DNA from: Cordilura impudica
Lineage: Eukaryota; Arthropoda; Insecta; Diptera; Scathophagidae
Assembly: GCA_963682025.1 (NCBI GenBank)
Contig: OY821522.1
Location: 32,365,849-32,429,848 of the forward strand
Reading direction: 5' to 3'
DNA: 64,000 bases
Positions 1 through 49,263 of this stretch are shown here, piece after piece. The position numbers were made by a program, and so were the translations under genes. Every line of letters starts with the position of its first letter. The first letter of the stretch is position 1. Below the pieces are notes generated by a model that worked only from the letters and a program-made list of their open reading frames with translations, was not told the origin of the DNA and made no database searches.

Positions 1-751
1 ACAAAACAAGCACCCCCAACGATCACAAATAAACAATTCATTCCACCCTATATCTACAACCACAAATTAACCTACACCAGGCATCCCTAAACAAAAAACC
101 GGATCCCACAAACTAATTAAGCCCTACTGCAAACAACCCATAAACACCAAACCAAAATCCCGTATTAAATAACCATATATATCTACAGACACCAATACAA
201 ATCTTAAACCACAGATCACCTAAAACCTCCATACTTATTTACACCCAAGACCAGCCAAAAACAAACAACCACAAGAAACAAATACAACCTGCATCCACAC
301 AACAAATTAAATAAAACGACATACATCTTTAACCAACAACGAAAAACGGAAACACCCTACATCCAAGGAAACAACAATCCAAACAACCACCGCCCAAATA
401 TCTGTATGTATTAATTATCTCACCCTCACTATCATATTAATGACTCATATTACTTTTCAGATCATCAACCCATAACTGAACTACACCCTGATTCACCCAC
501 ACAGAGGTCCTCATCCCACACACTAAACCAGGTAAGAAAATTATAGTCGGTCTAGTCCGATATACACTGTACTAACCCACGATGTGTTTTTCAAATTTTA
601 CCACCGCCTTCCACCATATTCAATCGCGTTTATCCCATTTTTTTCTTAACATCTACTATATTATATTAACATATATTATATTAAATTATATATATTAACA
701 TATTTTTCTCGCTTCCAGGACACTACCCCTACGGTAACCTTATCCGCAACA
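1..751 (-). repeat. 3' LTR of element A (partial, U3 end)
   Basis: Read on the minus strand the LTR starts at 751 with TGTTGCGG, the same first eight bases as the LTRs at 47015 and 57259. It is preceded by GTTT, as is the 3' LTR of the complete element. The sequence is GT-rich on the LTR sense strand, hence the striking A/C-rich plus strand of the first 530 bases, as in the other LTRs. Beyond the first bases little is conserved with the other element, so the LTRs have diverged far more than pol. The other end lies outside the window. Confidence 0.7.
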
Positions 752-2624
752 AAACAGCGAGGCTACCGAGGCATCGCTGGGAGGAACGGTGTGCGGAAAC
801 ACCTCGCTCTCCTGCCACAAAAAAAAAAACACCGCCGATCCCTAAGGGTGAGTATTACAGAAACACCTATCCCTCGCGAGACTATAACTAAAAAAAACTT
901 TTTGCACCGTGGGGGACCTCTCACCCCAAATGTGTCCTCCGGAATAAAATCTGTAATTCAAACATGAACTCAACTCAATGAAGTTGCTCCCTCGGGTATT
1001 TAACCTTTCCGAGCCTTGTTTTGACCCAATCTATGTTTCAATCCGATGGTTTTTCTGCGCACGCCGACTTCTGCGTTTTTCTTCGGAAAAGAAAAAGCAT
1101 AGTGGCCAACCCGAAAATACTTTAATTCATGTAATTGGTCCCTGACCAATTGTAGCACCTTATGTGCAAACTGATATATTCGCAATTGCTCGTCAATACG
1201 TTCTTAAATCTAGAACAACTATGTCAACAAAAAAAAACACGGGTAAAGCCTCTATCACTCCTTCAATTCGGAATCACCGTTGCTAAACCTCGGATTGATT
1301 CGCCTCTTAAGTCTCTTAAATATAAGATGTTCAGAAACTAAATATAAATTTCGCCAAACGCACCAAAACTCCATATACCCTGGTTTAGATCCATTTTTTT
1401 TTTTTTTTAATACTACCAGAACAAAACTTAGTGTTTCACGTTTTAGATGATAGAAATTTTACTATTTTTATTATTCCCACCATTGGTGGACTTAAAGATA
1501 ATTTCTGGAACAGTACAGAACAAGTAAACATAACAAACATTTACTTATTCTATATTGCACTTAAAAATTATATCACAGCAAAAAAAAATGGTAAATCCCA
1601 TATCACAGATTTTAAAACACATTATCATTTCAGGTCTTTTCGTGCTTGTCCCTTTGACATTATAGTCCCAACGTGGGGAACCCCCACCCCTGAGATGTCT
1701 CAACTCTACCGATTGGGAGAACCGGGCACTCCAGGTAAGTATTTGATATATTTTTGCCTCCCCGGATTCAATGTTCTTTTTATTTCTTTTTAGATCCTGC
1801 AAATATTCGCTGGCCAACCGGGCCTTGGGTCCGAACCCGCTATAATCCACTGTCACGTGAGTCATATTTTCTTTTACTTTTTTTTTTTCAAAAACAACCC
1901 TTATTACTATATTTGTACGAACGCTGGCAGGGACCGACTGACTTAACCCTCTACCCGAAACACCCCGCAAATTCTTTCCCCTTCGCCTCCAAGCGATCAT
2001 TATTTAGTATTCTCCTCTACCGCCGCGAATTCTTTCCTTGCGTTCAATTAACCGTGTTCACTCTCGTCCGTTATAATTCAAAAGGTTTTTTTCTCCTCAT
2101 TTGGATCTAGTCGCCAGTGACAGTCAGGTCTTTGCAATGATACAAACATCCCCAATTTTGTTGTGTTTGTCGTCTAATTCATTTCTATTCCGTTCAACTC
2201 GCCGTAATTACGGGCTCAGAAGCATGTCATTGTACCAGGTGACTAACGACTTCCAGTTCTTAATGGCACAGTTCCCCAGAACGCTAACGGAGTCGCACCA
2301 ATGGTACAATGACGGTTACACATGTAACCAGCTTAGAAACGTTGGCTTACGTTGATCGAATATAACGAATTCATCATTGCACTGATCATTGACTGCACTG
2401 CTGCCCTACGTCCAAAAAGGCAAAAAAAAACTTTTGATTCAGTTACGGGAAGAACTTATTACGGAACATTATCATTGAAATATTGTACTAGAGGTTTTCA
2501 TATCACAGGTTGTTGGTATGGGACGAAAAACTAACATATACTTAACTTATATTGCACGCTTAAACCTATATTGCACCAGACGAAGTTTTATCACAGTTTA
2601 CTTATAAATATTGCACATATGCTT
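752..2624 (-). other. 3' noncoding region of element A
   Basis: Lies between the pol stop and the 3' LTR, with no credible long reading frame. Blocks shared with 55717-57258 of the complete element include three GTGCAATATA words just after pol (about 2540-2620), a block near 2230-2345, the tRNA-like relic (1666-1727) and an 18-19-bp block next to the LTR near 780-800. No envelope-like gene is visible. The remainder (about 960-1620) shows nothing recognisable beyond a poly-T run near 1390-1410. Confidence 0.7.
1666..1727 (-). pseudogene. tRNA-Lys(CUU)-like relic in element A
   Basis: Read on the minus strand this 62-nt stretch follows the fly tRNA-Lys(CUU) gene from end to end with gaps: GCCCGG at the 5' end, then ATCGGTAGAG (D-arm), GAGA...TCTCAGGG (anticodon stem and variable region, anticodon loop deleted), GGGTTC (T-arm core) and CCCCACGTTGGG (3' acceptor side). 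It cannot form a tRNA because the anticodon loop and part of the T-loop are missing. A shorter version sits at the matching place, in the same orientation relative to pol, in the element at 47015-59491. The comparison is from my knowledge of the tRNA sequence, not a search. Confidence 0.65.
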
Positions 2625-4362
2625 TCAGACTTTAATGTCTTTCGAATGGAAAACCCCTATACTTTTTCCCTGTAGGGATTCCAATTCGTACATATTGTTT
2701 CCGATTGGTTTTACTATTCTGCATTTTAAATATTTTCTACAGAATTTAGAATTTATATTGTTTTTAAAATCGAATTGTGCAAAATTTCGTCGGTACACTT
2801 CCTGTCCTGGCATAAATTTAGTTGTTCTGGCCCTTTCATTGTATCTCTTTGCGCTTTTATCGAACGCTTCGTGCATATTATTCTTAATTTTTTCGTAAAT
2901 AAGTTTCTGCCGATCTTCTCTGTCCAAGGAAATAATTTCGTGGTCAGTCATTGACTTTAACTTTCTTGCAAGCTTATAGTCGGCTCCATTCGAATACCAA
3001 TGATATCCGAATAGAGAAAAGAATGGTGTCGTCCCCGTCGCTGTATGTATTGAAGTCCTCAATGCACATTCTATTTCTGATAGATATAAATCCCAATCTC
3101 TATGATCATTTTCTAGATATGATCTTACCGCCGCCAAAATAGACTGGTGGGGAATAGAATGCGGTTTTCAAATGCTTTATTTTATAGCTGTCTATCAGTT
3201 CCTTAAAAACGGTTGAAATAAATTGTTGCCCATTGTCACTATGTATTGTTTCGGGAACTCCGAATTTATTAAACACTTCATGAACCAAAAACTGCACTAC
3301 ATTTCTCGCTGTAGCCTCTTTCATTGCTTTAATAAAAGTGAATTTTGAAAAATGGTCTACTACGATAAATATATAGGCGTTGCCCCTTTTCGACCTTGGG
3401 TATTTCCCGAGAAAATCTATATATAATTTCTGGAATGGCCTTTCAGTTTGTACTTCATCCCCTATTGTCGGTCTTAAATTTTGGTTCGAAGGTTTAGCTT
3501 CCTTGCACACTTGGCAATTTAATACATAATTTCGGACTTGAATCGTCATTTTTGGCCAATAATATAATTGTTTTAGCCGGTTTAAAGTCTTATACAGGCC
3601 CCCGTGTGCTGAAGTTGTCGCATCATGAGCCTTTTCAATCAGAATGTGTGTGATTTCCTGAGGTATCCACAGTTTCCAAACACAATCATCTAAACTATCC
3701 GCTCTATCAAAGTTCATTTTCTTAAAGATTTTTCCGTTTTCCACCTTTAAATCCGGGAGTTTGTGTTGATTTTCTTGAATATTTTGTGCTAGGCTCACAT
3801 ATTCCTCACTTTCAAACTCATTGGTTTCAAAGTCAAAATAATCTTCGCTGATTTCATCGACTTGAACTGACATTCGCGATAGCATGTCGGCAACCACATT
3901 TTCCGACCCCTTTCGGTGTTCGATATCAAAATCGAAAGCCTGAAGTTGTAATGACCACCTAGCCAACCGTCCACTAAGGTCCTTCAAGGACATTAACCAT
4001 TTAAGGCTAGCGTGGTCAGTGATAACTGTAAACTTCATCATTTCAACGTAGGGTCTCAACCTCTTTACCGCTAAAACGGCCGCTAAACATTCCTTTTCGG
4101 TCACGGAGTAGTTCTTTTGACACGTGTTCAGTTTCTGCGAACCGTCATTTTTTTGGAAAAGAACTGCTCCGATCCCGAACTCTGATGCGTCACATTGAAT
4201 GAAGAATTGCCTAGAAAAATCGGGATGGCGTAGTACTGGGGCAGTTGTCAGCGCGTACTTCAGCGTTTCAAACGCTTCCGTCGCTTCAGGGGTCAAACAA
4301 ACTTTTTCCCTTTTTTCAATGTGTCGGTGAGCGCTGCTGATATGGAGGCGAAATCTTTTATG
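2625..4362 (-). pseudogene. pol: Broken pol (RNase H-integrase) of element A
   Basis: Two overlapping reading frames (4296-3106 and 3137-2625) together match the C-terminal ~600 residues of the pol at 52234-55716. In order: RNase H (QCDASEFGIGAVLF, VTEKECLAAVLAVKRLRPY, ITDHASLKWLMSL), integrase zinc-binding region (HDATTSAHGG...NCQVCKEAK), integrase core with the first two aspartates (LYIDFLGKYP, HSDNGQQF), and the integrase C-terminus. Near 3135-3150 an extra base plus a ~27-base deletion (net loss ~26) shifts the frame and removes the stretch bearing the catalytic glutamate. With the 5' truncation at 4362 and this lesion, the copy cannot encode a working enzyme. Confidence 0.9.
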
Positions 4363-13370: not shown

Positions 13371-13653
13371 AGCCCTAAACACATAACTGCGAGTTGTGAG
13401 TGCGAGAAAAAGCAAGAATGAGGCATCATGATTTTTTCTATATGTGGAAGCGAGATCGATAGTAAAGCTTTTTTGTGTGACGTTGCCAACTTATGTTGTA
13501 AAAACACTCGCAAGGGAAATATAATTGGTTTTATTTTCTGTGCGAGAAAAATCAGATGACATGAGAATCAGCTGATAGGCATTAAAAGCGATGCCTACTA
13601 TAGTAATTACTTTATTTAACCCGTTTATAGTTTCGATTTTATTCATTTTGTTA
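13371..13653 (-). mobile_element. Truncated second copy of the AGCCCTAAA MITE
   Basis: Similar to 5165-5434 in reverse orientation: AGCCCTAAACACATAACTGC at 13371, with TTA before it (13368-13370). It breaks off at ATTCATTTTGTTA (13653), where FB-B begins, so the far TIR is missing. The ~225 bases before it (13143-13367) hold nothing recognisable. Confidence 0.75.
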
Positions 13654-13880
13654 CGTGCGTGCCGATAGCCTCGAAAAAATAGCCTCGAATTTCAAATGAA
13701 TAGTTGGCAACGCGAAATTTTTAAAATGTATTCCAATGCTTATGGGAGTGGATTCTCCAGTTTGGGATGACTAATTTAAACAGGAATAATACTTAAATAA
13801 ATATTAGAACATTTATAGAACCTAAATTCTTGTTTTTTATTGGGATTTATTGGGACCGGGATACTCCAAGGAAGCTTCCA

Positions 13881-15897
13881 GCACAATGGAGCGTCGTACC
13901 ATGGAGCACGATATGTCATATTGAAGCTTAGGCAAAGGCGGATATAAAAAGTCTTCCGTGCAATAAATTTGCAAGCACGTTTCTGGACAAACTGGGAATC
14001 TTCATTTTTGTGGTCAAACCCACTTTTTGGACAAACTAAGCTCCGTACCAAGGGGCACGGCATGTCAAATTGAAGCTTAGGCATAGGCGGATATAAAAAG
14101 TGTTCCGTGCAATAAATTTGCCTGCACGTTTCTGGAAAAACTGGGAATCTTTATTTTTGGCCAGACCCACTAATTAAGACCCACTTTTTAGACAAACTAA
14201 GCTTCGTACCATGGAGCACGGCATGTCAAATTGAAGCTTAGGCATAGGTGGATATAAAAAGTCTTCCGTGCAATAAATTTGCCAGCACGTTTCTCGACAA
14301 ACTGGGAATCTTTATTTTTGTCCAGACCCACTTTTTGGACAAACTAAGCTTCGTACCATGAAGCACGGCATGTCAAATTGAAGCTTAGGCATAGGCGGAT
14401 ATAAAAAGTCTTCCGTGCAATAAATTTGCCAGCACGTTTCTGGACAAACTGGGAATCTTTATTTTTGGCCAGACCCACTTTTTGGACAAACTAAGCTTTG
14501 TACCATGGAGCACGGCATGTCAAATTGAAGCTTAGGCATAGGCGGATATAAAAAGTCTTCCGTGCAATAAATTTGCCAGCACGTTTCTGGACAAACTGGG
14601 ATTCTTTATTTTTGGCCAGACCCACCTTATAGACAAACTAAGCTTCGTACCATGGATAACGGCATGTCAAATTGAAGCTTAAGCATAGGCGGATATAAAA
14701 AGTCTTCCGTGCAATAAATTTGCCAGCACGTTTCTGGACAAACTGGGAATCTTTATTTTTGGCCAGACCCACTTTTTGGACAAACTAAGCTTCGTACCAT
14801 GGATCACGGCATGTCAAATTGAAGCTTAGGCATAGGCGGATATAAAAAGTCTTCCGTGCAATAAATTTGCCAGCACGTTTCTGGACAAACTGGGAATCTT
14901 TATTTTTGGCCAGACCCACCTTATAGACAAACTAAGCTTCGTACCATGGAGCACGGCATGTCAAATTGAAGCTTAGGCATAGGCGGATATAAAAAGTCTT
15001 CCGTGCAATAAATTTGCCAGCACGTTTCTGGACAAACTGGGAATCTTTATTTTTGGCCAGACCAACCTTATAGACAAACTAAGCTTCGTACCATGGATCA
15101 CGGCATGTCAAATTGAAGCTTAGGCATAGGCGGATATAAAAAGTCTTCCGTGCAATAAATTTGCCAGCACGTTTCTGGACAAACTGGGAATCTTTATTTT
15201 TGGCCAGACCCACCTTATAGACAAACTAAGCTTCGTACCATGGATCACGGCATGTCAAATTGAAGCTTAGGCATAGGCGGATATAAAAAGTCTTCCGTGC
15301 AATAAATTTGCCAGCACGTTTCTGGACAAACTGGGAATCTTTATTTTTGGCCAGACCCACTTTTTGGACAAACTAAGCTTCGTACCATAGAGCACCGCAT
15401 GTCAAATTGAAGCTTAGGCATAGGCGGATATAAAAAGTCTTCCGTGCAATAAATTTGCCAGCACGTTTCTGGACAAACTGGGAATCTTTATTTTTGGCCA
15501 GACCCACTTTTTGGACAAACTAAGCTTCGTACCATGGAGCACGGCATGTCAAATTGAAGCTTAGGCATAGGCGGATATAAAAAGTCTTCCGTGCAATAAA
15601 TTTGCCAGCACGTTTCTGGACAAACAGGGAATCTTTATTTTTGGCCAGACCCACCTTATAGACAAACTAAGCTTCGTACCATGGATCACGGCATGTCAAA
15701 TTGAAGCTTAGGCATAGGCGGATATAAAAAGTCTTCCATGCAATGAATTTGCCTGCACGTTTCTGGACAAACTAGGAATCTTTATTTTTGGCCAGACCCA
15801 CCTTTTAGACAAACTAAGCTTCGTACCATGGAGCACGGCATAGGCGGATATAAAAAGTTTTCCGTGCAATAAATTTGCGTGCACGTTTCTGGAAAAA
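13881..15897 (-). repeat. Satellite array A, ~14 monomers of 147 bp
   Basis: Counting one unit from GGCATAGGCGGATATAAAAA to the next gives 147 bp. Typical words are GTCTTCCGTGCAATAAATTT, CAGCACGTTTCTGGACAAAC and CATGTCAAATTGAAGCTTA. Units vary at TTTTTGGAC versus CTTATAGAC and at GGAGCACGG versus GGATCACGG. One unit near 14160-14190 has a 16-bp insertion that duplicates GTGGGTCT. The last unit is shortened. Confidence 0.95.
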
Positions 15898-17890
15898 TTC
15901 GAATTATTTATTTAATTAATAAAATTTTTATTTTCTTATTATAATACATAAATTAATAGGTAAAATTCGAGATATATTCACTTCTTTGTGTAGCCTATGT
16001 AAATGATGGGGTGTGTTCAATGGCTATTTTTTTATTTTTTGGCGTGTATTTTGTGCAACGCTGCTGTAAATTAAAATGTGGTATGAGGTATACATTTTAT
16101 ACTACCGTTCAAACGCATTGCACAAATTATTGAAAAATATCAAACTGGAGATTTCGGACATTGTTCAGGTGTATACTGCGAAAGTCAACCAATGTAGCCA
16201 TTGGGTTTATCTGATATTCCTGGCGAGGCAATAGTTAAAGTACATTTCCCAAAATGTGTTGATGTTTATACACCAAAATCATCACACGGGTGGTGCGTTT
16301 TTCGGTACTGGTTTTACACATGAGTGTGTTATTTATGGTGCACCATGGCATCGTTCTAAATGGCCTACTAATTAATTTGTTCCAAGACTTTATGGCTTCA
16401 AATACAAATATGGCTTATCAAATACAGCTGCAGGCAGCACCCAACTTTAAAATGCCAATACGAGTGATTAATAAATTAATATATAGCATACAAAAACAAC
16501 AATTATTGAGAAAGGAAAAGTCGGAGATTTGTTGTAAGGAAAACGTATTTTAGAAAAACTCAAAAAAGAACTAAGTTATTGCGTTTTGCACACCATCTTT
16601 TACCAATCCACAGCATTGCTAGTTATGATTATTACGATGAAAAGAAAATAATTCTTTGTGATAAATTATTTTATAAGTAAAGCTGCTTTTCTATGTTAAA
16701 TAAAAGTAAAAATTCCTAATATATTTGTTCCTCTTTTTATGTATGCCTTATTTGTTGCTCGTTCCAAATGGTTAGTGTTACAGAATATTTCAATTATTAA
16801 CTGATGCGACAGTTCATTTCGGTTTTTATACACATTTCCAATGAGTCTCTTGGCTAGAAATTAATTTGCTAAAAACAATAGAAAAGTCCTGGAATGTTAT
16901 CGATCAAACTATAAGTGATACAACTATAGATATGGCGCAGATGGAGATTTTTGTATTACAGACAATGTAAATAGTTGTATCATTTTAACTGTTCTTATAC
17001 ATATTGTATGTCTTATTAAAAACTACGTCCTTTACAAGATCTATATCTTCATTTCCTTCGGGTTCTTCAACGTGTATATATTCAACAGGTTCAACAACTT
17101 AAGTCTTCTACCATATCTTATATAACTAAGCAAGACAGAGCAAAAAATGGCTTTAATTTTAAATCATCTATAATTAAAGTTTCATAAAAATGCGTTTTTC
17201 TCGAAACAAAAAATCCAATTTTATATGAAAATTTCTTATAATTGCGTTTTTCTCGAAAACTAAGCAGGGTAGAGCAAAATGTGCTTTATTTTGGGATCAC
17301 CTACATATATTTTTGACCACATATATTTTTTTTTTTTTAAAAAATCATGCGTTTTCAGGTTTCCAATAATTTTGATAGCGATCGCCCATATTTCACCCAT
17401 ATGACATATGCGAGCTGTAGTCTATATATAGGTTTATATGGACTAGCCAGTGTACATAAATGAAATGTACAGACCAATAAAAATATATAACTCATACAAA
17501 ATTCTTGTCTGTTATTGTTTTTTTTTTTTTTTTTTCATTATTTAGAACATTTTTAACAAATATCACAACCCTGGTGCTTTGGTAAGTAGAATTGTTTTTA
17601 ATTAAATAAATTTTTACATGCTTGTATTTATTTTATTATGAATTCGGCCTTAAATATTAATTAATAACTGAAGGGATTTAAGCTTCTTCACGAAAGAATT
17701 TCGTTAATAAAGTTGCATATCTAGTCCTATATATAATTTCTTACTTAAAAATCTATGTGTTTATTTTCTCTAAGTATATTTGGATTTTGTAATGCTTTTA
17801 TTTTTATTCTTTGCGTGTATTTGGGTATGTTCAGTGAATAAAAATAGTTAGTTTTTCTGTGCAACTCTGGTAAAAACGGTTATTTTTTTT
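15898..17890 (+). repeat. FB-B left inner arm
   Basis: Inverted near-identical copy of 18102-20059. It holds a degenerate frame from about 16077 ([20 protein letters not shown]...) continuing into 16290-16553 (87 codons), both repeated in the other arm. I recognise no family; they could be a decayed transposase or chance. T-rich stretches surround them. Confidence 0.75.
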
Positions 17891-18101
17891 CTAAGTCCGA
17901 GTTCACACAAGGCAACTTTTGTTGCGCAATTCCGAATGAAAAGAAATGTCAAATATTCAACAAAAAAAAAAGCGAATGAGAGAATTGCTTGAAATAGCCG
18001 AGAACCGGCAATTATTTTTCCCTTTTTATTCCCCTCACCGCAAACATCTACAAACTCAAGAATTGCGCAACAAAAGTTGCCTTGTGTGAACTCGGACTTA
18101 G
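17891..18101. repeat. FB-B centre: perfect 42-bp inverted repeat around a 127-bp spacer
   Basis: CTAAGTCCGAGTTCACACAA... at 17891-17932 is repeated exactly in complement at 18060-18101. The spacer 17933-18059 is not palindromic and contains an A-run. Because the flanking arms are also inverted, the whole ~4.2 kb region could extrude as one cruciform. Confidence 0.9.
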
Positions 18102-20059
18102 AAAAAAAATAACCGTTTTTACCAGAGTTGCACAGAAAAACTAACTATTTTTATTCACTGAACATACCCAAATACACGCAAAGAATAAAAATAAAAGCAT
18201 TACAAAATCCAAATATACTTAGAGAAAATAAACACATAGATTTTTAAGTAAGAAATTATATATAGGACTAGATATGCAACTTTATTAACGAAATTCTTTC
18301 GTGAAGAAGCTTAAATCCCTTCAGTTATTAATTAATATTTAAGGCCGAATTCATAATAAAATAAATACAAGCATGTAAAAATTTATTTAATTAAAAACAA
18401 TTCTACTTACCAAAGCACCAGGGTTGTGATATTTGTTAAAAATGTTCTAAATAATGAAAAAAAAAAAAAACAATAAGAGACAAGAATTTTGTATGAGTTA
18501 TATATTTTTATTGGTCTGTACATTTCATTTATGTACACTGGCTAGTCCATATAAACCTATATATAGACTACAGCTCGCATATGTCATATGGGTGAAATAT
18601 GGGCGATCGCTATCAAAATTATTGGAAACCTGAAAACGCATGATTTTTTTAAAAAAAAAAAATATATGTGGTCAAAAATATATGTAGTTGATCCCAAAAT
18701 AAAGCACATTTTGCTCTACCCTGCTTAGTTTTCGAGAAAAACGCAATTATAAGAAATTTTCATATAAAATTGGATTTTTTGTTTCGAGAAAAACGCATTT
18801 TTATGAAACTTTAATTATAGATGATTTAAAATTAAAGCCATTTTTTGCTCTGTCTTGCTTAGTTATATAAGATATGGTAGAAGACTTAAGTTGTTGAACC
18901 TGTTGAATATATACACGTTGAAGAACCCGAAGGAAATGAAGATATAGATCTTGTAAAGGACGTAGTTTTTAATAAGACATACAATATGTATAAGAACAGT
19001 TAAAATGATACAACTATTTACATTATCTGTAATACAAAAATCTCCATCTGCGCCATATCTATAGCTGTATCACTTATAGTTTGATCGATAACATTCCAGA
19101 ACTTTTCTATTGTTTTTAGCAAATTAATTTCTAGCCAAGAGACTCATTGGAAATGTGTATAAAAACCGAAATGAACTGTCACATCAGTTAATAATTGAAA
19201 TATTCTGTAACACTAATCATTTGGAACGAGCAACAAATAAGGCATACATAAAAAGAGGAACAAATATATTAGGAATTTTTACTTTTATTTAACATAGAAA
19301 AGCAGCTTTACTTATAAAATAATTTATCACAAAGAATTCTTTTCTTTTCATCGAAATAATCATAACTAGCAATGCTGTGGATTGGTAAAAGATGATGTGC
19401 AAAACGCAATAACTTAGTTCTTTTTTGAGTTTTTCTAAAATACGTTTTCCTTACAACAAATCTCCGACTTTTCCTTTCTCAATAATTGTTGTTTTTGTAT
19501 GCTATATATTAATTTATTAATCACTCGTATTGGCATTTTAAAGTTGGGTGCTGCCTGCAGCTGTATTTGATAAGCCATATTTGTATTTGAAGCCATAAAG
19601 TCTTGGAACAAATTAATTAGTAGGCCTTTTAGAACGATGCCATGGTGCACCATAAATAACACACTCATGTGTAAAACCAGTACCGAAAAACGCACCACCC
19701 GTGTGATGATTTTGGTGTATAAACATCAACACATTTTGGGCAATGAACCCAATGGCTACATTGGTTGACTTTCGCAGTATACACCTGAACAATGTCCGAA
19801 ATCTCCAGTTTGATATTTTTCAATAATTTGTGCAATGCGTTTGAACGGTAGTATAAAATGTATACCTCATACCACATTTTAATTTACAGCAGCGTTGCAC
19901 AAAATACACGCCAAAAAATAAAAAAATAGCCATTGAACACACCCCATCATTTACATAGGCTACACAAAGAAGTGAATATATCTCGAATTTTACCTATTAA
20001 TTTATGTATTATAATAAGAAAATAAAAATTTTATTAATTAAATAAATAATTCGAATTTT
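18102..20059 (-). repeat. FB-B right inner arm
   Basis: Inverted copy of the left inner arm. The 87-codon frame is conserved here on the minus strand (19698-19435), differing at one visible residue, with the upstream 70-codon part at 19877-19665. The ~40-bp deletion relative to the left arm lies near 19735. Confidence 0.75.
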
Positions 20060-21480
20060 TCCAGAAACGTGCACGCAAATTTATTGCACGGAAAACTTTT
20101 TATATCCGCCTATGCCGTGCTCCATGGTACGAAGCTTAGTTTGTCTCAAAGGTGGGTCTGGCCAAAAATAAAGATTCCTAGTTTGTCCAGAAACGTGCAG
20201 GCAAATTTATTGCATGGAAGACTTTTTATATCCGCCTATGCCTAAGCTTCAATTTGACATGCCGTGCTCCATGGTACGAAGCTTAGTTTGTCCAAAAAGT
20301 GGGTCTGGCCAAAAATAAATATTCCCAGTTTGTCCAGAAACGTGCTGGCAAATTTATTGCACGGAAGACTTTTTATATCCGCCTATGCCTAAGCTTCAAT
20401 TTGACATGCGGTGCTCCATGGTACGAAGCTTAGTTTGCCCAAAAAGTGGGTCTGGCCAAAAATAAAGATTCCCAGTTTGTCCAGAAACGTGCTGGCAAAT
20501 TTGTTGCACGGAAGACTTTTTATATCCGCCTATGCCTAAGCTTCAATTTGACATGCCGTGATCCATGGTACGAAGCTTAGTTTGTCTATAAGGTGGGTCT
20601 GGCCAAAAATAAAGATTCCCAGTTTGTCCAGAAACGTGCTGGCAAATTTATTGCACGGAAGACTTTTTATATCCGCCTATGCCTAAGCTTCAATTTGACA
20701 TGCCGTGATCCATGGTACGAAGCTTAGTTTGTCTATAAGGTGGGTCTGGCCAAAAATAAAGATTCCCAGTTTGTCCAGAAACGTGCAGGCAAATTTATTG
20801 CACGGAAGACTTTTTATATCCGCCTATGCCTAAGCTTCAATTTGACATGCCGTGCTCCATGGTACGAAGCTTAGTTTGTCTATAAGGTGGGTCTGGCCAA
20901 AAATAAAGATTCCCAGTTTGTCCAGAAACGTGCTGGCAAATTTATGGCACGGAAGACTTTTTATATCCGCCTATGCCTAAGCTTCAATTTGACATGCGGT
21001 GTTCCATGGTACGAAGCTTAGTTTGTCCAAAAAGTGGGTCTGGCCAAAAATAAAGATTCCCAGTTTGTCGAGAAACGTGCTGGCAAATTTATTGCACGGA
21101 AGACTTTTTATATCCACCTATGCCTAAGCTTCAATTTGACATGCCGTGCTCCATGGTACGAAGCTTAGTTTGTCTAAAAAGTGGGTCTTAATTAGTGGGT
21201 CTGGCCAAAAATAAAGATTCCCAGTTTTTCCAGAAACGTGCAGGCAAATTTATTGCACGGAACACTTTTTATATCCGCCTATGCCTAAGCTTCAATTTGA
21301 CATGCCGTGCCCCTTGGTACGGAGCTTAGTTTGTCCAAAAAGTGGGTTTGACCACAAAAATGAAGATTCCCAGTTTGTCCAGAAACGTGCTTGCAAATTT
21401 ATTGCACGGAAGACTTTTTATATCCGCCTTTGCCTAAGCTTCAATATGACATATCGTGCTCCATGGTACGACGCTCCATT
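20060..21480 (+). repeat. Satellite array B, ~9-10 monomers of 147 bp
   Basis: Same monomer as array A, in opposite orientation as expected for the other palindrome arm but with fewer units. The last two units differ (CCCTTGGTACGGAGC, GTTTGACCACAAAAATGAAG). The TAA found in the usual unit is there replaced, so a 102-codon frame (21281-21589) opens by chance. Confidence 0.95.
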
Positions 21481-21711
21481 GTGCTGGAAGCTTCCTTGGA
21501 GTATCCCGGTCCCAATAAATCCCAATAAAAAACAAGAATTTAGGTTCTATAAATGTTCTAATATTTATTTAAGTATTATTCCTGTTTAAATTAGTCATCC
21601 CAAACTGGAGAATCCACTCCCATAAGCATTGGAATACATTTTAAAAATTTTGCGTTGCCAACTATTCATTTGAAATTCGAGGCTATTTTTTCGAGGCTAT
21701 CGGCACGCACG

Positions 21712-24700
21712 TATGCCATTTACATGTAAATAGAAAAATAAAACTAAATGGATATAATTTCATTTATGACAATTCGGATTTAGGTGTAGCAATCGCCATC
21801 AAAAACAATATACAGTACAATAGAATTGTTTGCAATAGAATACAATTTAATAACATATTTATTGAAATAGAATTAATTATAAACAACATTAGAAAAAAAT
21901 ATTTACTGGGGTCTATTTATATTCCCTGTGTATATGCCTCACAAGATTTAAACAACAGCTTGGACCAGATTCTTCAATTAAGCAATAATTATGATGGGTT
22001 TATACTTGGTGGTGACCTAAATGCGAAAAGTTTAAACTGGGGTGATTCTGCAGAAATGGAAAAGCTCTACATGACTGGTTACAGAACAATTGCTTAGATG
22101 TAACGCGCGTTTGCGATATATCTCCATCGTTTCCAAACGGGTCCTCTTTTCTAGACCAGTTTACAACTAAGAAGTCCTCCGGCAATAACTTCATATAAAA
22201 ACACCAATTGGAACGCATTCAGGAGAGATTTAGAAGAAGCCTCCATTGCCATATTACCTCCCAACAACTGCAATTTAAATAATGATGACTTAGATGTACT
22301 CATAAACACATTTAATGATACACTTACCTCAATCCATGACAGTCACTCAATCAAAATAGAAATAAATGATCGTAAACGTCCGTATCCAGATAACATCAAA
22401 AAATTTTTCAAAATAAAGTATACATGGCAGAAAAACCTTAAGAAAATATACCACAGAACTGGCAATAAAATTAGCAGTGAGTATAAAATTCTATCAAAAC
22501 AAATACAATTATTAAAAACAATAATTAATGAGCTTATAAATCTTGAAGATGCTAAAAACTTTAGACTTAAACTCTCAAAAATAAAACCAGGTCCTACTGC
22601 GTTTAAAGATGTATTTCAGATCATTGGTAAAAATAAGTCTCCATTCTGCCAACAACTCTTACATGATGATACCATCACAACAAATAGCTCTCAAATATCG
22701 GAGATTTTTAGATCCCATTACTCTGAAATTTTCAAAGAAGTAATTCCTGAAAGACCAGTCAATAATATAGAAAATCAAATCTCGTCCTGCGTTAATAGAC
22801 TCCCACAAAATATTTATACATTTGATGAAACGTTCCCGGCCGAAAAAACGATGATAATTACCATTTCACAAACGCAAATAAAATTAGAATACTCATAAAA
22901 AACATTAACAGCAAAAAGTCCTTTGGTTTTGACGGTGTCTCCAATTTTATCATCAAAAAATTTCCTGATTCAACACTAAAACTATTAGCTACCATTTTCA
23001 ACAATTGCATTAATAACGGTTATTTCCCATCGGTCTGGAAGAAAGCCAAAATACTACCGATGAAAAAGAAGCAGGACAGTAAAAAGCCTGAAGATTTCCG
23101 CCCAATATCCCTTTTATCCAACGTTGGAAAATTGTTTGAACATGTTATTAAGGAAAAACTGGAAAGTGAGTTCATTGTGGAACCAATATCAGATTTCCAA
23201 TTTGGATTCAGAAAAACTCACTCAACACAACATGCATTGTTGAAATTTCATAACGACGTAACCTGCAATTTAAGGGATAAAACATGCACCGTGGCAATAT
23301 CCTTGGATATTGAAAAGGCGTTTGATTCTGTCTATCATAACGGAATACTTTATAAGCTTATAATACTTGGCGTGGACCCGTTTTTGGTAAAAATACTTTG
23401 CAGCTACTTCGAAAATAGGAAATTTGGCATCCAAATCAACAGCATAACCTCAGAACTAGGACATGTGAAAAGTGGGGTACCACAGGGAAGCATACTGGCT
23501 CCCTTATTGTTCAATATTTTCCTGCATGATTTTCCTCACCAATCTGGAAATTCAAAGGCTATCCTTTACGCTGATGATTGTCTAATTTACTCTCACAACA
23601 AATCACCAATACAAGCTCTGAATATTGCTGCTTTTCATCTGGGAGAAATAAGTGCCTTTTACATGAAATGGGGCATGAAAATCAATGCAGCCAAATCAGA
23701 GGCAATATGCATCAGGAACGCATCGGGTAAATGTCCAAGATACGTTGTGCCGGAGAGTAAACTCCTACAACTCTCACTGGATGGCGTAAATATACCATTT
23801 AAGAACACCATTAAGTACCTCGGGGTTCACTTTGACAAATTATTGAAATTTAATGCCCACGCTAGAAATCTCCTAGAGAAAACGAAAAGAATCTCTGGAA
23901 TGTTTGCAACACTAATGAACAACACATACTTACCTAAGAACACCAAGCTTTTACTCTACAAGGTCGCCATTAGATCGGTTCTCTCCTATGGATTCCCAAT
24001 CTGGTTCACTATATCCCCTATAGTAGCTAAGGAATTGGAGATATTTGAACGAAAAATCCTAAGAAAATGCATCGGAAAGAATTATGAAAATTTCATAAAA
24101 CGATTTTCAAATACCTACGTGTGTGAAAATGCAGATGTTATACCCTTCTGTAGATACGCCATGTTGTTGCAAACCAGATTTGTGGTAAAACTTGCGCTTC
24201 ACGACAACGCTCTAGTCAGCCATATATACAACACAGAGAGAAACATCATCTGGACTGGGTCTACTTACCTCTCACCTGTTGGAATCATCAACGAACATAC
24301 TGACGACGATCCAGTCCCCCGTGACCTCCCCTCATTCTATATGAGCTCAGCTGCCGGCAATCATAGGGGCTGAAAAAGAAGATTGAATTTAATTCTGCAC
24401 AAAATTTACATATGACAAAGTAACTACCTACAAGAGTTTAACTCTATTCGCTGTGATATTTATATTCTATTTATCTAATTATTTTTTTTACTCTGTACCT
24501 GAACAATCTGTTTTGTTTTATTGTTAAGCTTACCATTTATGCATACTCGATGTATTTTCTAATTTGATACGTCCACATGAATTGTGATATGAACATGTTT
24601 GTCAATGTATATAACAGATCTTTTGTTGATTATTATTAATTGTTATTTAGTTTTAGTATGTTAATTACAGACATTTGCTCTGTTAGCGATTTTAAAGGCC

Positions 24701-24910
24701 GAAAGCAAGCCTTGTCAAACTATTCAGTTTGTACATTTTTTTACATTTACACATCTCACTTTAGCAATGTTGCTTGTTACATTTACTTAGCTATTAGAGT
24801 AAGACAAATATAGCTCTAAGAATATTATTGTTCTCATCGTATGTAAGACAATCTATGTTATCGAAAGAAAAGAAGACTTAATAAAAATTTTACTTACTTA
24901 CTTACTTACT
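21712..24910 (+). mobile_element. LINE copy 1 (5'-truncated, (TTAC)n tail)
   Basis: Begins at TATGCCATTTACATG directly after the FB-B end, already inside an endonuclease-like region, and ends with TTACTTACTTACTTAC before FB-B inner-arm sequence (TTAATTTACAGCAGCG). The endonuclease part reads LGVAIAIKNN..., YIPCVYASQDL, ILGGDLNAKSLNWGD, then loses frame near 22060 and again near 22830-22890. The RT part is open. A tail of tandem tetranucleotides rather than poly-A is seen in several LINE groups (I-like and relatives). Confidence 0.85.
23060..24373 (+). pseudogene. LINE reverse transcriptase, copy 1 (open for 437 codons)
   Basis: Contains the RT signatures DFRPISLLSNVGKLFE, ISLDIEKAFDSVYHN (near residue 80), GVPQGSILAPLLFNIF, ILYADDCLIYS (YADD near residue 170) and IKYLGVHFD, then the C-terminal thumb-like region (RSVLSYGFPIWF). 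The frame remains open upstream of the first ATG through SFGFDGVSNFIIKKFP (from about 22900). The endonuclease half is frameshifted, so this is the open remnant of a broken ORF2. It is identical to 28710-30023. Confidence 0.85.
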
Positions 24911-25087
24911 TTAATTTACAGCAGCGTTGCACAAAATACACGCCAAAAATTAAAAAAATAGCCATTGAACACACCCCATCATTTACATAGGCTACACAAA
25001 GAAGTGAATATATCTCGAATTTTACCTATTAATTTATGTATTATAATAAGAAAATAAAAATTTTATTAATTAAATAAATAATTCGAA
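24911..25087 (+). repeat. Fragment of FB-B inner arm
   Basis: Matches 19882-20059 (TTAATTTACAGCAGCGTTGC ... AATAATTCGAATTTTTCC) and runs into satellite array C. The LINE tail abuts it directly. The same fragment follows LINE copy 2 at 30565-30739. Confidence 0.85.
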
Positions 25088-27130
25088 TTTTTCCAGAAAC
25101 GTGCACGCAAATTTATTGCACGGAAAACTTTTTATATCCGCCTATGCCGTGCTCCATGGTACGAAGCTTAGTTTGTCTAAAAGGTGGGTCTGGCCAACAA
25201 TAAAGATTCCCCGTTTGTCCAGAAACGTGCTGGCAAATTTATTGCACGGAAGACTTTTTATATCCGCCTATGCCTAAGCTTCAATTTGACATGCCGTGCT
25301 CCAAGGTGCGAAGCTTAGTTTGTCTATAAGGTGGGTCTGGCCAAAAATAAAGATTCCCAGTTTGTCCAGAAACGTGCTGGCAAATTTATTGCACGGAAGA
25401 CTTCTTATATCCGCCTATGCCTAAGCTTCAATTTGACATGCCGTGCTCCACGGTAGGAAGCTTAGTTTGTCTATAAGGTGGGTCTGGCCAAAAATAAAGA
25501 TTCCCAGTTTGTCCAGAAACGTGCTGGCAAATTTATTGCACAGAAGACTTTTTATATCCGCCTTTGCCTAAGCTTAAATTTGACATGCCGTGCTCCATGG
25601 TACGAAGCTTAGTTTGTCTAAAAAGTGGGTCTTAATTAGTGGGTCTGGCCAAAAATAAAGATTCGCAGTTTTTCCAGAAACGTGCAGGCAAATTTATTGC
25701 ACGGAAGACTTTTTATATCCGCCTATGCCTAAGCTTCAATTTGACATGCCGTGCCCCTTGGTACGGAGCTTAGTTTGTCCAAAAAGTGGGTTTGACCACA
25801 AAAATGAAGATTCCCGGTTTGTCCAGAAACGTGCTTGCAAATTTATTGCACGGAAGACTTTTTATATCCGCCTTTGCCTAAGCTTCAATTTGACATACCG
25901 TGCTCCATGGTACGAAGCTTAGTTTGTCCAAAAAGTGGGTCTGGCCAAAAATAAAGATTCCCAGTTTGTCGAGAAACTTGCTGGTAAATTTATTGCACGG
26001 AAGACTTTTTATATCCGCCTATGCCTAAGCTTCGATTTGACATGCCGTGCTCCATGGTACGAAGCTTAGTTTGTCTAAAAAGTGGGTCTTAATTAGTGGG
26101 TCTGGCCAAAAATAAAGATTCCCAGTTTTTCCAGAAACGTGCTGGCAAATTTATTGCACGGAAGACTTTTTATATCCGCCTATGCCTAAGCTTCAATTTG
26201 ACATGCCTTGATCCATGGTACGAAGCTTAGTTTGTCTATAAGGTGGGTCTGGCCAAAAATAAAGATTCCCAGTTTGTCCAGAAACGTGCTGGCAAATTTA
26301 TTGCACGGAAGACTTTTTATATCCGCCTATGCCTAAGCTTCAATTTGACATGCCGTGATCCATGGTACGAAGCTTAGTTTGTCTATAAGGTGGGTCTGGC
26401 CAAAAATAAAGATTCCCAGTTTGTCCAGAAACGTGCAGGCAAATTTATTGCACGGAAGACTTTTTATATCCGCCTATGCCTAAGCTTCAATTTGACATGC
26501 CGTGCTCCATGGTACGAAGCTTAGTTTGTCTATAAGGTGGGTCTGGCCAAAAATAAAGATTCCCAGTTTGTCCAGAAACGTGCTGGCAAATTTATGGCAC
26601 GGAAGACTTTTTATATCCGCCTATGCCTAAGCTTCAATTTGACATGCGGTGTTCCATGGTACGAAGCTTAGTTTGTCCAAAAAGTGGGTCTGGCCAAAAA
26701 TAAAGATTCCCAGTTTGTCGAGAAACGTGCTGGCAAATTTATTGCACGGAAGACTTTTTATATCCACCTATGCCTAAGCTTCAATTTGACATGCCGTGCT
26801 CCATGGTACGAAGCTTAGTTTGTCTAAAAAGTGGGTCTTAATTAGTGGGTCTGGCCAAAAATAAAGATTCCCAGTTTTTCCAGAAACGTGCAGGCAAATT
26901 TATTGCACGGAACACTTTTTATATCCGCCTATGCCTAAGCTTCAATTTGACATGCCGTGCCCCTTGGTACGGAGCTTAGTTTGTCCAAAAAGTGGGTTTG
27001 ACCACAAAAATGAAGATTCCCAGTTTGTCCAGAAACGTGCTTGCAAATTTATTGCACGGAAGACTTTTTATATCCGCCTTTGCCTAAGCTTCAATATGAC
27101 ATATCGTGCTCCATGGTACGACGCTCCATT
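25088..27130 (+). repeat. Satellite array C, ~13 monomers
   Basis: 147-bp units with local variants, including units carrying the 16-bp GTGGGTCT-duplicating insertion (near 25625, 26085 and 26835). The 5' part matches the 5' part of array D, and the part after about 26210 matches array B after 20560: the signature of a crossover between mismatched arrays. Confidence 0.95.
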
Positions 27131-27361
27131 GTGCTGGAAGCTTCCTTGGAGTATCCCGGTCCCAATAAATCCCAATAAAAAACAAGAATTTAGGTTCTAT
27201 AAATGTTCTAATATTTATTTAAGTATTATTCCTGTTTAAATTAGTCATCCCAAACTGGAGAATCCACTCCCATAAGCATTGGAATACATTTTAAAAATTT
27301 TGCGTTGCCAACTATTCATTTGAAATTCGAGGCTATTTTTTCGAGGCTATCGGCACGCACG

Positions 27362-30300
27362 TATGCCATTTACATGTAAATAGAAAAATAAAACTAAATG
27401 GATATAATTTCATTTATGACAATTCGGATTTAGGTGTAGCAATCGCCATCAAAAACAATATACAGTACAATAGAATTGTTTGCAATAGAATACAATTTAA
27501 TAACATATTTATTGAAATAGAATTAATTATAAACAACATTAGAAAAAAATATTTACTGGGGTCTATTTATATTCCCTGTGTATATGCCTCACAAGATTTA
27601 AACAACAGCTTGGACCAGATTCTTCAATTAAGCAATAATTATGATGGGTTTATACTTGGTGGTGACCTAAATGCGAAAAGTTTAAACTGGGGTGATTCTG
27701 CAGAAATGGAAAAGCTCTACATGACTGGTTACAGAACAATTGCTTAGATGTAACGCGCGTTTGCGATATATCTCCATCGTTTCCAAACGGGTCCTCTTTT
27801 CTAGACCAGTTTACAACTAAGAAGTCCTCCGGCAATAACTTCATATAAAAACACCAATTGGAACGCATTCAGGAGAGATTTAGAAGAAGCCTCCATTGCC
27901 ATATTACCTCCCAACAACTGCAATTTAAATAATGATGACTTAGATGTACTCATAAACACATTTAATGATACACTTACCTCAATCCATGACAGTCACTCAA
28001 TCAAAATAGAAATAAATGATCGTAAACGTCCGTATCCAGATAACATCAAAAAATTTTTCAAAATAAAGTATACATGGCAGAAAAACCTTAAGAAAATATA
28101 CCACAGAACTGGCAATAAAATTAGCAGTGAGTATAAAATTCTATCAAAACAAATACAATTATTAAAAACAATAATTAATGAGCTTATAAATCTTGAAGAT
28201 GCTAAAAACTTTAGACTTAAACTCTCAAAAATAAAACCAGGTCCTACTGCGTTTAAAGATGTATTTCAGATCATTGGTAAAAATAAGTCTCCATTCTGCC
28301 AACAACTCTTACATGATGATACCATCACAACAAATAGCTCTCAAATATCGGAGATTTTTAGATCCCATTACTCTGAAATTTTCAAAGAAGTAATTCCTGA
28401 AAGACCAGTCAATAATATAGAAAATCAAATCTCGTCCTGCGTTAATAGACTCCCACAAAATATTTATACATTTGATGAAACGTTCCCGGCCGAAAAAACG
28501 ATGATAATTACCATTTCACAAACGCAAATAAAATTAGAATACTCATAAAAAACATTAACAGCAAAAAGTCCTTTGGTTTTGACGGTGTCTCCAATTTTAT
28601 CATCAAAAAATTTCCTGATTCAACACTAAAACTATTAGCTACCATTTTCAACAATTGCATTAATAACGGTTATTTCCCATCGGTCTGGAAGAAAGCCAAA
28701 ATACTACCGATGAAAAAGAAGCAGGACAGTAAAAAGCCTGAAGATTTCCGCCCAATATCCCTTTTATCCAACGTTGGAAAATTGTTTGAACATGTTATTA
28801 AGGAAAAACTGGAAAGTGAGTTCATTGTGGAACCAATATCAGATTTCCAATTTGGATTCAGAAAAACTCACTCAACACAACATGCATTGTTGAAATTTCA
28901 TAACGACGTAACCTGCAATTTAAGGGATAAAACATGCACCGTGGCAATATCCTTGGATATTGAAAAGGCGTTTGATTCTGTCTATCATAACGGAATACTT
29001 TATAAGCTTATAATACTTGGCGTGGACCCGTTTTTGGTAAAAATACTTTGCAGCTACTTCGAAAATAGGAAATTTGGCATCCAAATCAACAGCATAACCT
29101 CAGAACTAGGACATGTGAAAAGTGGGGTACCACAGGGAAGCATACTGGCTCCCTTATTGTTCAATATTTTCCTGCATGATTTTCCTCACCAATCTGGAAA
29201 TTCAAAGGCTATCCTTTACGCTGATGATTGTCTAATTTACTCTCACAACAAATCACCAATACAAGCTCTGAATATTGCTGCTTTTCATCTGGGAGAAATA
29301 AGTGCCTTTTACATGAAATGGGGCATGAAAATCAATGCAGCCAAATCAGAGGCAATATGCATCAGGAACGCATCGGGTAAATGTCCAAGATACGTTGTGC
29401 CGGAGAGTAAACTCCTACAACTCTCACTGGATGGCGTAAATATACCATTTAAGAACACCATTAAGTACCTCGGGGTTCACTTTGACAAATTATTGAAATT
29501 TAATGCCCACGCTAGAAATCTCCTAGAGAAAACGAAAAGAATCTCTGGAATGTTTGCAACACTAATGAACAACACATACTTACCTAAGAACACCAAGCTT
29601 TTACTCTACAAGGTCGCCATTAGATCGGTTCTCTCCTATGGATTCCCAATCTGGTTCACTATATCCCCTATAGTAGCTAAGGAATTGGAGATATTTGAAC
29701 GAAAAATCCTAAGAAAATGCATCGGAAAGAATTATGAAAATTTCATAAAACGATTTTCAAATACCTACGTGTGTGAAAATGCAGATGTTATACCCTTCTG
29801 TAGATACGCCATGTTGTTGCAAACCAGATTTGTGGTAAAACTTGCGCTTCACGACAACGCTCTAGTCAGCCATATATACAACACAGAGAGAAACATCATC
29901 TGGACTGGGTCTACTTACCTCTCACCTGTTGGAATCATCAACGAACATACTGACGACGATCCAGTCCCCCGTGACCTCCCCTCATTCTATATGAGCTCAG
30001 CTGCCGGCAATCATAGGGGCTGAAAAAGAAGATTGAATTTAATTCTGCACAAAATTTACATATGACAAAGTAACTACCTACAAGAGTTTAACTCTATTCG
30101 CTGTGATATTTATATTCTATTTATCTAATTATTTTTTTTACTCTGTACCTGAACAATCTGTTTTGTTTTATTGTTAAGCTTACCATTTATGCATACTCGA
30201 TGTATTTTCTAATTTGATACGTCCACATGAATTGTGATATGAACATGTTTGTCAATGTATATAACAGATCTTTTGTTGATTATTATTAATTGTTATTTAG

Positions 30301-30564
30301 TTTTAGTATGTTAATTACAGACATTTGCTCTGTTAGCGATTTTAAAGGCCGAAAGCAAGCCTTGTCAAACTATTCAGTTTGTACATTTTTTTACATTTAC
30401 ACATCTCACTTTAGCAATGTTGCTTGTTACATTTACTTAGCTATTAGAGTAAGACAAATATAGCTCTAAGAATATTATTGTTCTCATCGTATGTAAGACA
30501 ATCTATGTTATCGAAAGAAAAGAAGACTTAATAAAAATTTTACTTACTTACTTACTTACTTACT
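27362..30564 (+). mobile_element. LINE copy 2 (duplicate of copy 1)
   Basis: Same 5' truncation point, same endonuclease frameshifts and same 3' end as copy 1, with the tail one TTAC longer. Sharing the truncation and lesions means it arose by duplication of the locus, not by a second retrotransposition. Confidence 0.9.
28710..30023 (+). pseudogene. LINE reverse transcriptase, copy 2 (437 codons)
   Basis: Identical in translation to the frame at 23060-24373, with the same RT motifs and YADD near residue 170. It is part of the duplicated segment and has no independent significance. Confidence 0.85.
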
Positions 30565-30739
30565 TTAATTTACAGCAGCGTTGCACAAAATACACGCCAA
30601 AAATTAAAAAAATAGCCATTGAACACACCCCATCATTTACATAGGCTACACAAAGAAGTGAATATATCTCGAATTTTACCTATTAATTTATGTATTATAA
30701 TAAGAAAATAAAAATTTTATTAATTAAATAAATAATTCG

Positions 30740-32345: not shown

Positions 32346-32590
32346 GTGCTGGAAGCTTCCTTGGAGTATCCCGGCCACAATAAATCCCAATAAAAAACAA
32401 GAATTTAGGTTCTATAAATGTTCTAATATTTATTTATGTATTATTCCTGTTTAAATTAGTTATCCTAAACTGGAGAATCCACTCCCATAAGCATTGGAAT
32501 ACATTTTAAAAATTTCGCGTTGCCAACTATTCATTTGAAATTCGAAGCTATTTTTTCGAGGCTATCGGCACGCACGTATCGGCACGCACG
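32346..32590 (+). repeat. FB-B outer flank, third copy
   Basis: Matches 21481-21711 and 27131-27361 (CTGGAAGCTTCCTTGGAGTA ... TCGAGGCTATCGGCACGCACG) with a few substitutions. The terminal CGGCACGCACGT is duplicated in tandem (32568-32590), then the Harbinger-type element begins. Confidence 0.85.
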
Positions 32591-49250: not shown

Positions 49251-49253
49251 ATA

Positions 49254-49263
49254 TGGCGCCCAA
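49254..49263 (+). promoter_or_regulatory. Primer binding site for tRNA-Lys(CUU)
   Basis: TGGCGCCCAA starts three bases after the 5' LTR and complements the 3' end of tRNA-Lys (TTGGGCG plus CCA). The ninth and tenth bases favour the CUU isoacceptor over UUU. Complementarity stops after ten bases, shorter than the usual ~18. Confidence 0.65.

Follow-up and report, generated by a model that had tools for sequence, protein, structure and literature searches.

A captured tRNA-Lys(CUU) relic as a candidate exon of a spliced antisense RNA in two diverged Ty3/gypsy elements of the fly Cordilura impudica

The Osvaldo lineage of Ty3/gypsy retrotransposons is described as having long LTRs and a primer-binding site (PBS) complementary to tRNA-Lys (PMC3286476). 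In its Culex members the LTRs measure 997–2055 bp by the text of that source and up to 2137 bp by its table, in which a 4-bp target-site duplication (TSD) is given in most, not all, rows (PMC3286476). Two described systems of this type stand close to the elements A and B analyzed here, which lie in a 64,000-nucleotide stretch of the Cordilura impudica assembly (contig OY821522.1, positions 32,365,849 to 32,429,848 of the forward strand; hereafter the window). The element cqgypsy_1 of Culex quinquefasciatus, likewise Osvaldo-type and with long LTRs, also contains a captured tRNA-Lys sequence; its capture is, however, a tRNA-Lys/tRNA-Glu dimer at the PBS, with perfect cloverleaves and CCA, unlike the relics of A and B, and in the passages cited the dimer belongs to one family, related Aedes elements being without it, and no antisense exon is described (PMC3286476). 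The Isis-like element of the blowfly Calliphora vicina, also of the Osvaldo lineage, resembles B in its long LTRs (2577 bp) and its 4-bp TSD, and its pol of 1137 aa and lack of env are listed as further likenesses; it is set beside B by description, and the passages cited mention no tRNA relic or antisense exon (PMC3630058).

The window holds many retroelements and repeats. Element B is a complete LTR retrotransposon of 12,477 bases on the plus strand (47015–59491), flanked at both ends by the TSD GACT and bounded by a 5′ LTR of 2236 bp (47015–49250) and a 3′ LTR of 2233 bp (57259–59491) that are 99.4% identical. It carries gag (50879–52363, plus strand; Pfam Retrotrans_gag, E 2.3e-5) and pol (52234–55716, plus strand), an intact ORF with protease, RT, RNase H and integrase. 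The tRNA-Lys-type PBS TGGCGCCCAA (49254–49263, plus strand) is located three bases past the 5′ LTR, and its pairing with tRNA-Lys is limited to ten bases, the next eight letters mismatching the tRNA query sequence. Element B thereby combines the long LTRs (about 1–2 kb) and the 4-bp TSD of the Osvaldo lineage with its tRNA-Lys PBS, the latter judged from those ten bases and from B, as A's PBS falls outside the window. Element A, on the minus strand, comprises a pol remnant (2625–4296) in two ORF pieces, one (3106–4296) with RNase H and integrase domains and the other (2625–3137) without a Pfam match and aligning to the end of B pol, as well as the start of a 3′ LTR (1–751), truncated at the window edge and assigned by the homologous LTR junction. 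Among the best 120 of the 3190 matches to the pol protein, 8 were named; 6 of these came from flies (Lucilia cuprina, Stomoxys calcitrans twice, Drosophila bipectinata, D. ananassae and Ceratitis capitata) and 2, including the best-ranked named one, from the moth Eumeta japonica, and no Osvaldo-named protein was present among these 120. For a BEL query, the best-ranked named match was from Haematobia irritans (75%). The repeats of the window include a large array of 147-bp tandem repeats (13652–32578), which is in part palindromic, with 98% complementarity between arms of as much as 1602 nt, and in which ORFs of 437 aa lie at 23060 and 28710, that at 23060 matching a Pfam reverse transcriptase; near the window edge, a dense short-period tandem array extends from 62356 to at least 63044, with 69 copies spaced 8–21 bases start-to-start.

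Each element carries a relic of tRNA-Lys(CUU), which lies downstream of pol, ahead of the 3′ LTR, and has the same orientation as pol. An earlier, sequence-only reading had claimed that words of this tRNA stand in order on the minus strand of A, and this is confirmed: from 1727 to 1667 on the minus strand the relic reads GCCCGG, TCGGTAGAG, TGAGAC, ATCTCAGGG, GGGTTC and CCCACGTTGGG, amounting to six exact words of at least six letters in common with the tRNA and a Smith-Waterman score of 55. The shorter version that had been reported at the same place and orientation in B was found at 56584–56628 on the plus strand, with four such words (GCCCGGCT, TGAGAC, ATCTCAGGG and CCCCACGTTGGG), a score of 38 and the D arm gone. 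Comparison with shuffled sequence had been set as a check beforehand, and both scores exceed anything obtained when either partner was dinucleotide-shuffled in sets of 2000 (mean 13–14, maximum 26); moreover, the relics are the top two tRNA-Lys matches of the window on both strands, the next non-overlapping place scoring 22. The tRNA query sequence is called by ARAGORN as a perfect tRNA-Lys(ctt). Neither relic was called as a foldable tRNA by ARAGORN, and the Rfam tRNA model gave no match to them even at E ≤ 10. Judged by the order and the scores of the shared words, the tRNA origin of the relics is established. The deletion of the anticodon loop that had been noted is seen in both relics (tRNA nt 33–37, numbered by hand like all tRNA positions of the deletions), yet this account was incomplete, a second deletion of 4 nt in the T loop (56–59 or 57–60) being also common to both.

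In addition to the two internal deletions, the relics of A and B have the junctions on both sides and the changes TTGAGAC and GGGAC in common. Since the junctions and deletions are shared, one capture is likeliest, and by parsimony the two relics have a single origin, in support of the earlier idea of a gain in their common ancestor. The deletions span tRNA positions 37 and 58, which in fly tRNA-Lys(CUU) we take to be modified (t6A37 and m1A58). In the HIV-1 primer tRNA-Lys,3, plus-strand synthesis is described as stopping mainly at m1A58 and to a minor degree at psi55, m5U54 and ms2t6A37 (PMC13191261). Deletions at modified bases that are able to stop reverse transcriptase suggest copying of a mature tRNA; reverse transcription of such a tRNA is the likeliest source of the relic, by an argument that is post hoc, concerns two deletions and is borrowed from tRNA-Lys,3 rather than from tRNA-Lys(CUU). 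The sense orientation would be consistent with a template jump from genomic RNA to the tRNA and back in the course of minus-strand synthesis. The copied primer tRNA that the sequence-only reading had offered as one explanation is supported by the tRNA-Lys-type PBS of B as well as by the position of the deletions. Skipped modified bases could serve as a fossil mark that distinguishes copies of mature modified tRNAs from copies of tRNA genes.

The description of A and B as two diverged elements holds: their pol sequences are 84% and 82% identical at the amino-acid level in A's two ORF pieces (553 codons), yet only 57 of 154 four-fold sites (37%) are identical, which amounts to saturation, and the NG86 method yields no finite dS. 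The A LTR (about 750 bases within the window) has no blastn match to the B LTR on the same strand. The relics, by comparison, agree at 41 of 45 aligned positions, not counting 18 gapped columns, and the antisense segments proposed below at 57 of 83 (exon E2), 40 of 59 (intron b) and 20 of 55 (exon E3, a neutral level); Fisher p for the relic identity is 3.5e-11 vs. four-fold sites and 1.1e-8 vs. E3. Saturation of silent sites alongside such a conserved relic indicates selection, and this comparison of two elements points to retention of the relic by selection, as had been suggested; a neutral remnant would hardly be recognizable in both A and B.

The strand on which the relic might act was addressed by folding. 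The RNAalifold consensus of the relic pair has −15.65 kcal/mol in antisense, reached by 18 of 1000 column shuffles, and −13.4 kcal/mol in sense, reached by 184 of 1000. In the antisense consensus fold, the old T stem is a six-pair hairpin in which two G-C pairs of A are G.U in B, and the minimum antisense fold of B on its own is shifted by one pair and has one G.U. Of three G-to-A differences on the B sense strand in this part of the relic, two fall in the old T stem; these give A-C mismatches in sense and are G.U-pairable in antisense RNA only. The alignment-based model thus tilts weakly toward the antisense strand, whereas the single-sequence fold stability (z from −1.2 to +0.4 vs. shuffles, both strands) supports neither.

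On the antisense strand, an exon end with the donor CAG|GTAAGT is located seven bases past the relic in A and B alike (relic 1727, exon end 1734 in A; 56584 and 56577 in B). These are the only two such donors of the window, a feature that the sequence-only reading had missed: counted without any threshold, there are exactly two copies of the donor word CAGGTAAGT over the two strands of the 64 kb (A, plus 1732; B, minus 56579). Downstream of the donor there is a polypyrimidine acceptor, which delimits a proposed intron b of 59 nt in A (1735–1793, plus strand; acceptor score 11.8) and 61 nt in B (56516–56576, minus strand; acceptor 9.6). The proposed exon E2, which contains the relic, would occupy 1634–1734 of the plus strand in A (donor 8.8, weak acceptor 1.8, with a stronger acceptor of 8.7 at 1420) and 56577–56648 of the minus strand in B (acceptor 7.4, donor 8.8). 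It would be followed by exon E3 (A, 1794–1856, plus strand; B, 56461–56515, minus strand), after which comes a weak donor GTGAGT (3.4 in A, 4.6 in B), and preceded by exon E1, which would span the 3′ LTR junction at 719–847 on the plus strand in A (acceptor 7.3, donor agg|GTGAGT 5.8) and at 57194–57287 on the minus strand in B (acceptor 7.9, donor agg|GTAAGT 6.5), its acceptor being inside the LTR in both elements. The agreement between A and B is weaker at the E1 borders, the E2 acceptor and the E3 donors than at intron b. The splice-site weights were general ones, and the strict thresholds for a donor-acceptor pair (donor score ≥ 8.5, acceptor score ≥ 9.0, spacing 45–120 nt) were chosen after a first scan; with these settings the whole window, both strands, contains exactly two pairs, one per relic, and shuffled post-pol regions contain them in 0 of 2000 and 1 of 2000 cases in antisense and, likewise, in 0 of 2000 and 1 of 2000 cases in sense. 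The real sense post-pol regions have no donor-acceptor pair even with thresholds of 4 and 4. In a local control, in which the 120 nt after the donor were shuffled, such an acceptor arose in 8 of 2000 (A) and 32 of 2000 (B) cases. By these weights, it is clear that A and B have antisense splice signals at corresponding positions.

We propose, with a probability slightly better than even (roughly 55%), that the captured primer tRNA is now exon E2 of an antisense RNA that is spliced and probably noncoding, as read from the sequences of the two elements. In an ancestor of A and B, a mature tRNA-Lys(CUU), of the type that serves B as primer, would have been reverse transcribed, with two stretches at modified bases skipped. 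During minus-strand synthesis this copy would have become part of the element, downstream of pol and ahead of the 3′ LTR, in the same orientation as pol. The opposite strand would then have taken over the copy, whose reverse complement would be an exon of a spliced antisense RNA probably starting in the 3′ LTR, and selection would have retained the exon letters, the donor just past the 5′ end of the tRNA part and the acceptor that follows. We infer that such an RNA is made and spliced, is noncoding and regulates the element; regulation might operate in cis by pairing with the element RNA, or via a 12-nt perfect complement to tRNA-Lys. Indeed, exon E2 of both elements retains the complement of the 12 letters CCCCACGTTGGG, which correspond to tRNA positions 60–71, a part that borders and overlaps the priming segment; the B PBS pairs with positions 67–76, so the two would compete. 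The energies of the E2/tRNA-Lys duplexes (−96.0 and −78.5 kcal/mol) follow from the tRNA origin and are, therefore, not evidence of use. The more specific reading is that of an anti-primer RNA, which would control priming or copy number by pairing with tRNA-Lys or with fragments of tRNA-Lys as its guides; it is tentative and on balance improbable, and a cis role (pairing with the sense RNA, or feeding small RNAs) is as likely. In the Ulysses element of Drosophila virilis, testis antisense piRNAs are reported mostly on the LTRs (PMC3136932).

Several other readings account for parts of these observations. Use of the relic by the element in sense, as a structured tRNA-like RNA, was the other proposal of the sequence-only reading; it would fit the sense orientation, the tRNA-Lys-type PBS of B and the acceptor and anticodon stems that stay pairable in the sense consensus fold, and it has a precedent in HIV-1 that involves the same tRNA family (PMC9315659). 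However, both relics have lost the anticodon loop, the part that is imitated in HIV-1, the D arm of B is gone, mismatches break the B T stem on this strand, the sense fold does no better than column shuffles, and the conserved antisense donor and acceptor would be left unexplained. With the Rfam tRNA model giving no match and the fold statistics unremarkable, a sense tRNA-like structure was rejected as the main reading, and we consider it unlikely; of the earlier interpretation as a whole, the ancestral gain, the maintenance and the primer-tRNA copying stand. A DNA-level element (enhancer, insulator or protein-binding site) made of tRNA letters, in which the splice-like letters would be chance or secondary, draws some credit from other conserved words nearby and from a repeated motif, GTGCAATATA; the exact 9-letter donors and strong acceptors at nearly equal spacing in A and B, as well as the divergence of the intron interior and, above all, of E3, speak against it and leave it with a small share of probability. 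A protein-coding antisense gene in the region from pol to the 3′ LTR, comparable to HTLV-1 HBZ or plant antisense ORFs and with the relic as a coding exon, has precedents (PMC7264820, PMC10186651), and E2 plus E3 are open in one frame for 54 codons in A and 42 in B, with P-E-M-S-Q in common. This short stretch is all that A and B were found to share by way of a conserved antisense protein; third positions in the conserved part of E1 are, by eye, no freer than others, and in the P-E-M-S-Q frame the phase of intron b is 1 in A and 2 in B. The length of E2 differs by 29 bases if the A acceptor is that at 1634, although an acceptor at 1420 would make the difference a multiple of three, so that length alone is not decisive. 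Because A and B have different intron phases in the one frame that they share, an antisense protein is not favored, and we regard it as rather doubtful.

The history of the relic admits alternatives as well. The primer tRNA is expected in every particle, and the same modified bases may be skipped in each round of reverse transcription, so that A and B could have captured the same, highly conserved host tRNA independently; against this, the two have in common the junctions on both sides, the changes TTGAGAC and GGGAC and the donor nearby, and a functionless neutral remnant of one capture would be expected to show an identity near that of the four-fold sites (37%). We assign a very low probability to independent capture or a neutral remnant. 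SINEs usually have tRNA-derived heads. A tRNA-Lys-derived SINE inserted into the ancestral element would find a parallel in the tRNA dimer of the Culex Osvaldo-lineage element, which is reminiscent of SINE Twin (PMC3286476), but no SINE body or tail is seen by eye beside the relic in A or B, and both relics have lost part of the B-box region, making this origin highly improbable; a Pol III promoter was rejected along with it, on the same partial deletion.

The proposed antisense exon derived from the captured primer has conserved neighbors. Between pol and the relic, there is a conserved structured non-coding block (A, 2175–2401, minus strand; B, 55999–56223, plus strand) with 166 of 227 positions identical (73%), which includes a long hairpin GUCAUUGUAC.../...GUACAAUGAC; its consensus fold (−43.1 in sense and −47.1 in antisense, null means −25.3 and −22.7) was reached by 0 of 300 column shuffles in each orientation. 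A further block at the LTR junction (A, 745–799; B, 57211–57265) is identical at 46 of 56 positions and, by eye, open in one antisense frame in both elements; no classical purine-rich tract was seen ahead of the 3′ LTR in A or B. With these two blocks, the post-pol region is a conserved non-coding cassette of which the relic is one part. The motif GTGCAATATA occurs on the sense strand three times in the post-pol region of A (751–2625, minus strand) and three times in that of B (55717–57258, plus strand), and 0 times on either strand of window positions 2626–47000; from their distribution the copies look like a cluster of binding sites. In the post-pol region of A, a stretch at 1506–1560 (minus strand) matched the Rfam family mir-4703 with 25.6 bits vs. 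a gathering score of 88 (E 0.0042 in a 401-base search), which is probably a chance match to a local inverted repeat.

Searches were extended to two contig collections. In the viral collection, the relic DNA pattern had 0 matches, B pol had none, and a 32-row pol alignment gave 81 pattern matches of which 0 were confirmed. In the genome collection, the same alignment gave 29 pattern matches and 14 distant loci at 27–40% identity, all of them in MAG records filed as prokaryotes. None of the 14 had a tRNA-Lys score like those of the relics (the best was 34, at locus L005, which contains one PBS word, and the other 13 scored 17–25), and the donor word CAG|GTAAGT was present, on either strand, in 2 of 14 (L009 and L010). 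As none of these loci is a close relative, they carry no information on the element family.

Overall, retroelements are already known to capture tRNAs and, separately, to be transcribed in antisense, and a captured primer tRNA that selection has maintained as an exon of an antisense RNA while silent sites diverged to saturation was not found among the matches listed in the open-licence literature. On the side of capture, the Helenus TRIMs have tRNA-derived LTRs, and the hymenopteran ones were aligned with tRNA-Lys-CTT, so that tRNA-Lys(CUU) letters are involved as here (PMC10886601). Helenus elements are, however, described as non-autonomous, with the tRNA part in the LTR and with A and B boxes (PMC10886601), whereas element B has gag and pol, its relic (56584–56628) lies outside the 3′ LTR, which starts at 57259, and the Pol III boxes are not retained, the T loop being partly deleted in both relics and the D arm gone in B. 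The tRNA-like element next to the HIV-1 PBS resembles the relics in that a retroelement RNA imitates the primer tRNA-Lys; in the account cited it imitates the anticodon loop beside the PBS (PMC9315659), while the relics of A and B are without this loop (nt 33–37 deleted) and lie toward the opposite end of the element, in B at a distance of 7.3 kb from the PBS. On the side of antisense transcription, the hbz gene of HTLV-1 produces a spliced antisense RNA from the 3′ LTR, the same layout as that predicted here from splice signals, and its RNA both encodes a protein and acts as RNA; hbz differs in being protein-coding, as opposed to the A and B elements without a conserved antisense protein (PMC10186651). 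Micropia of Drosophila hydei, a fly Ty3/gypsy element, has noncoding antisense RNAs like the one proposed, which by a cited title are complementary to reverse transcriptase, and the passages cited mention no tRNA-derived exon (PMC7264820). Steamer-like Element-1 of Mytilus chilensis, another invertebrate LTR retrotransposon, has an antisense RNA driven by the 3′ LTR, with a 67-aa antisense ORF and an IRES and, in the passages cited, no mention of a tRNA exon (PMC10974842). Set beside these systems, the antisense RNA of A and B, if it exists, would be a concrete case in which a retroelement has made a regulator out of its primer.
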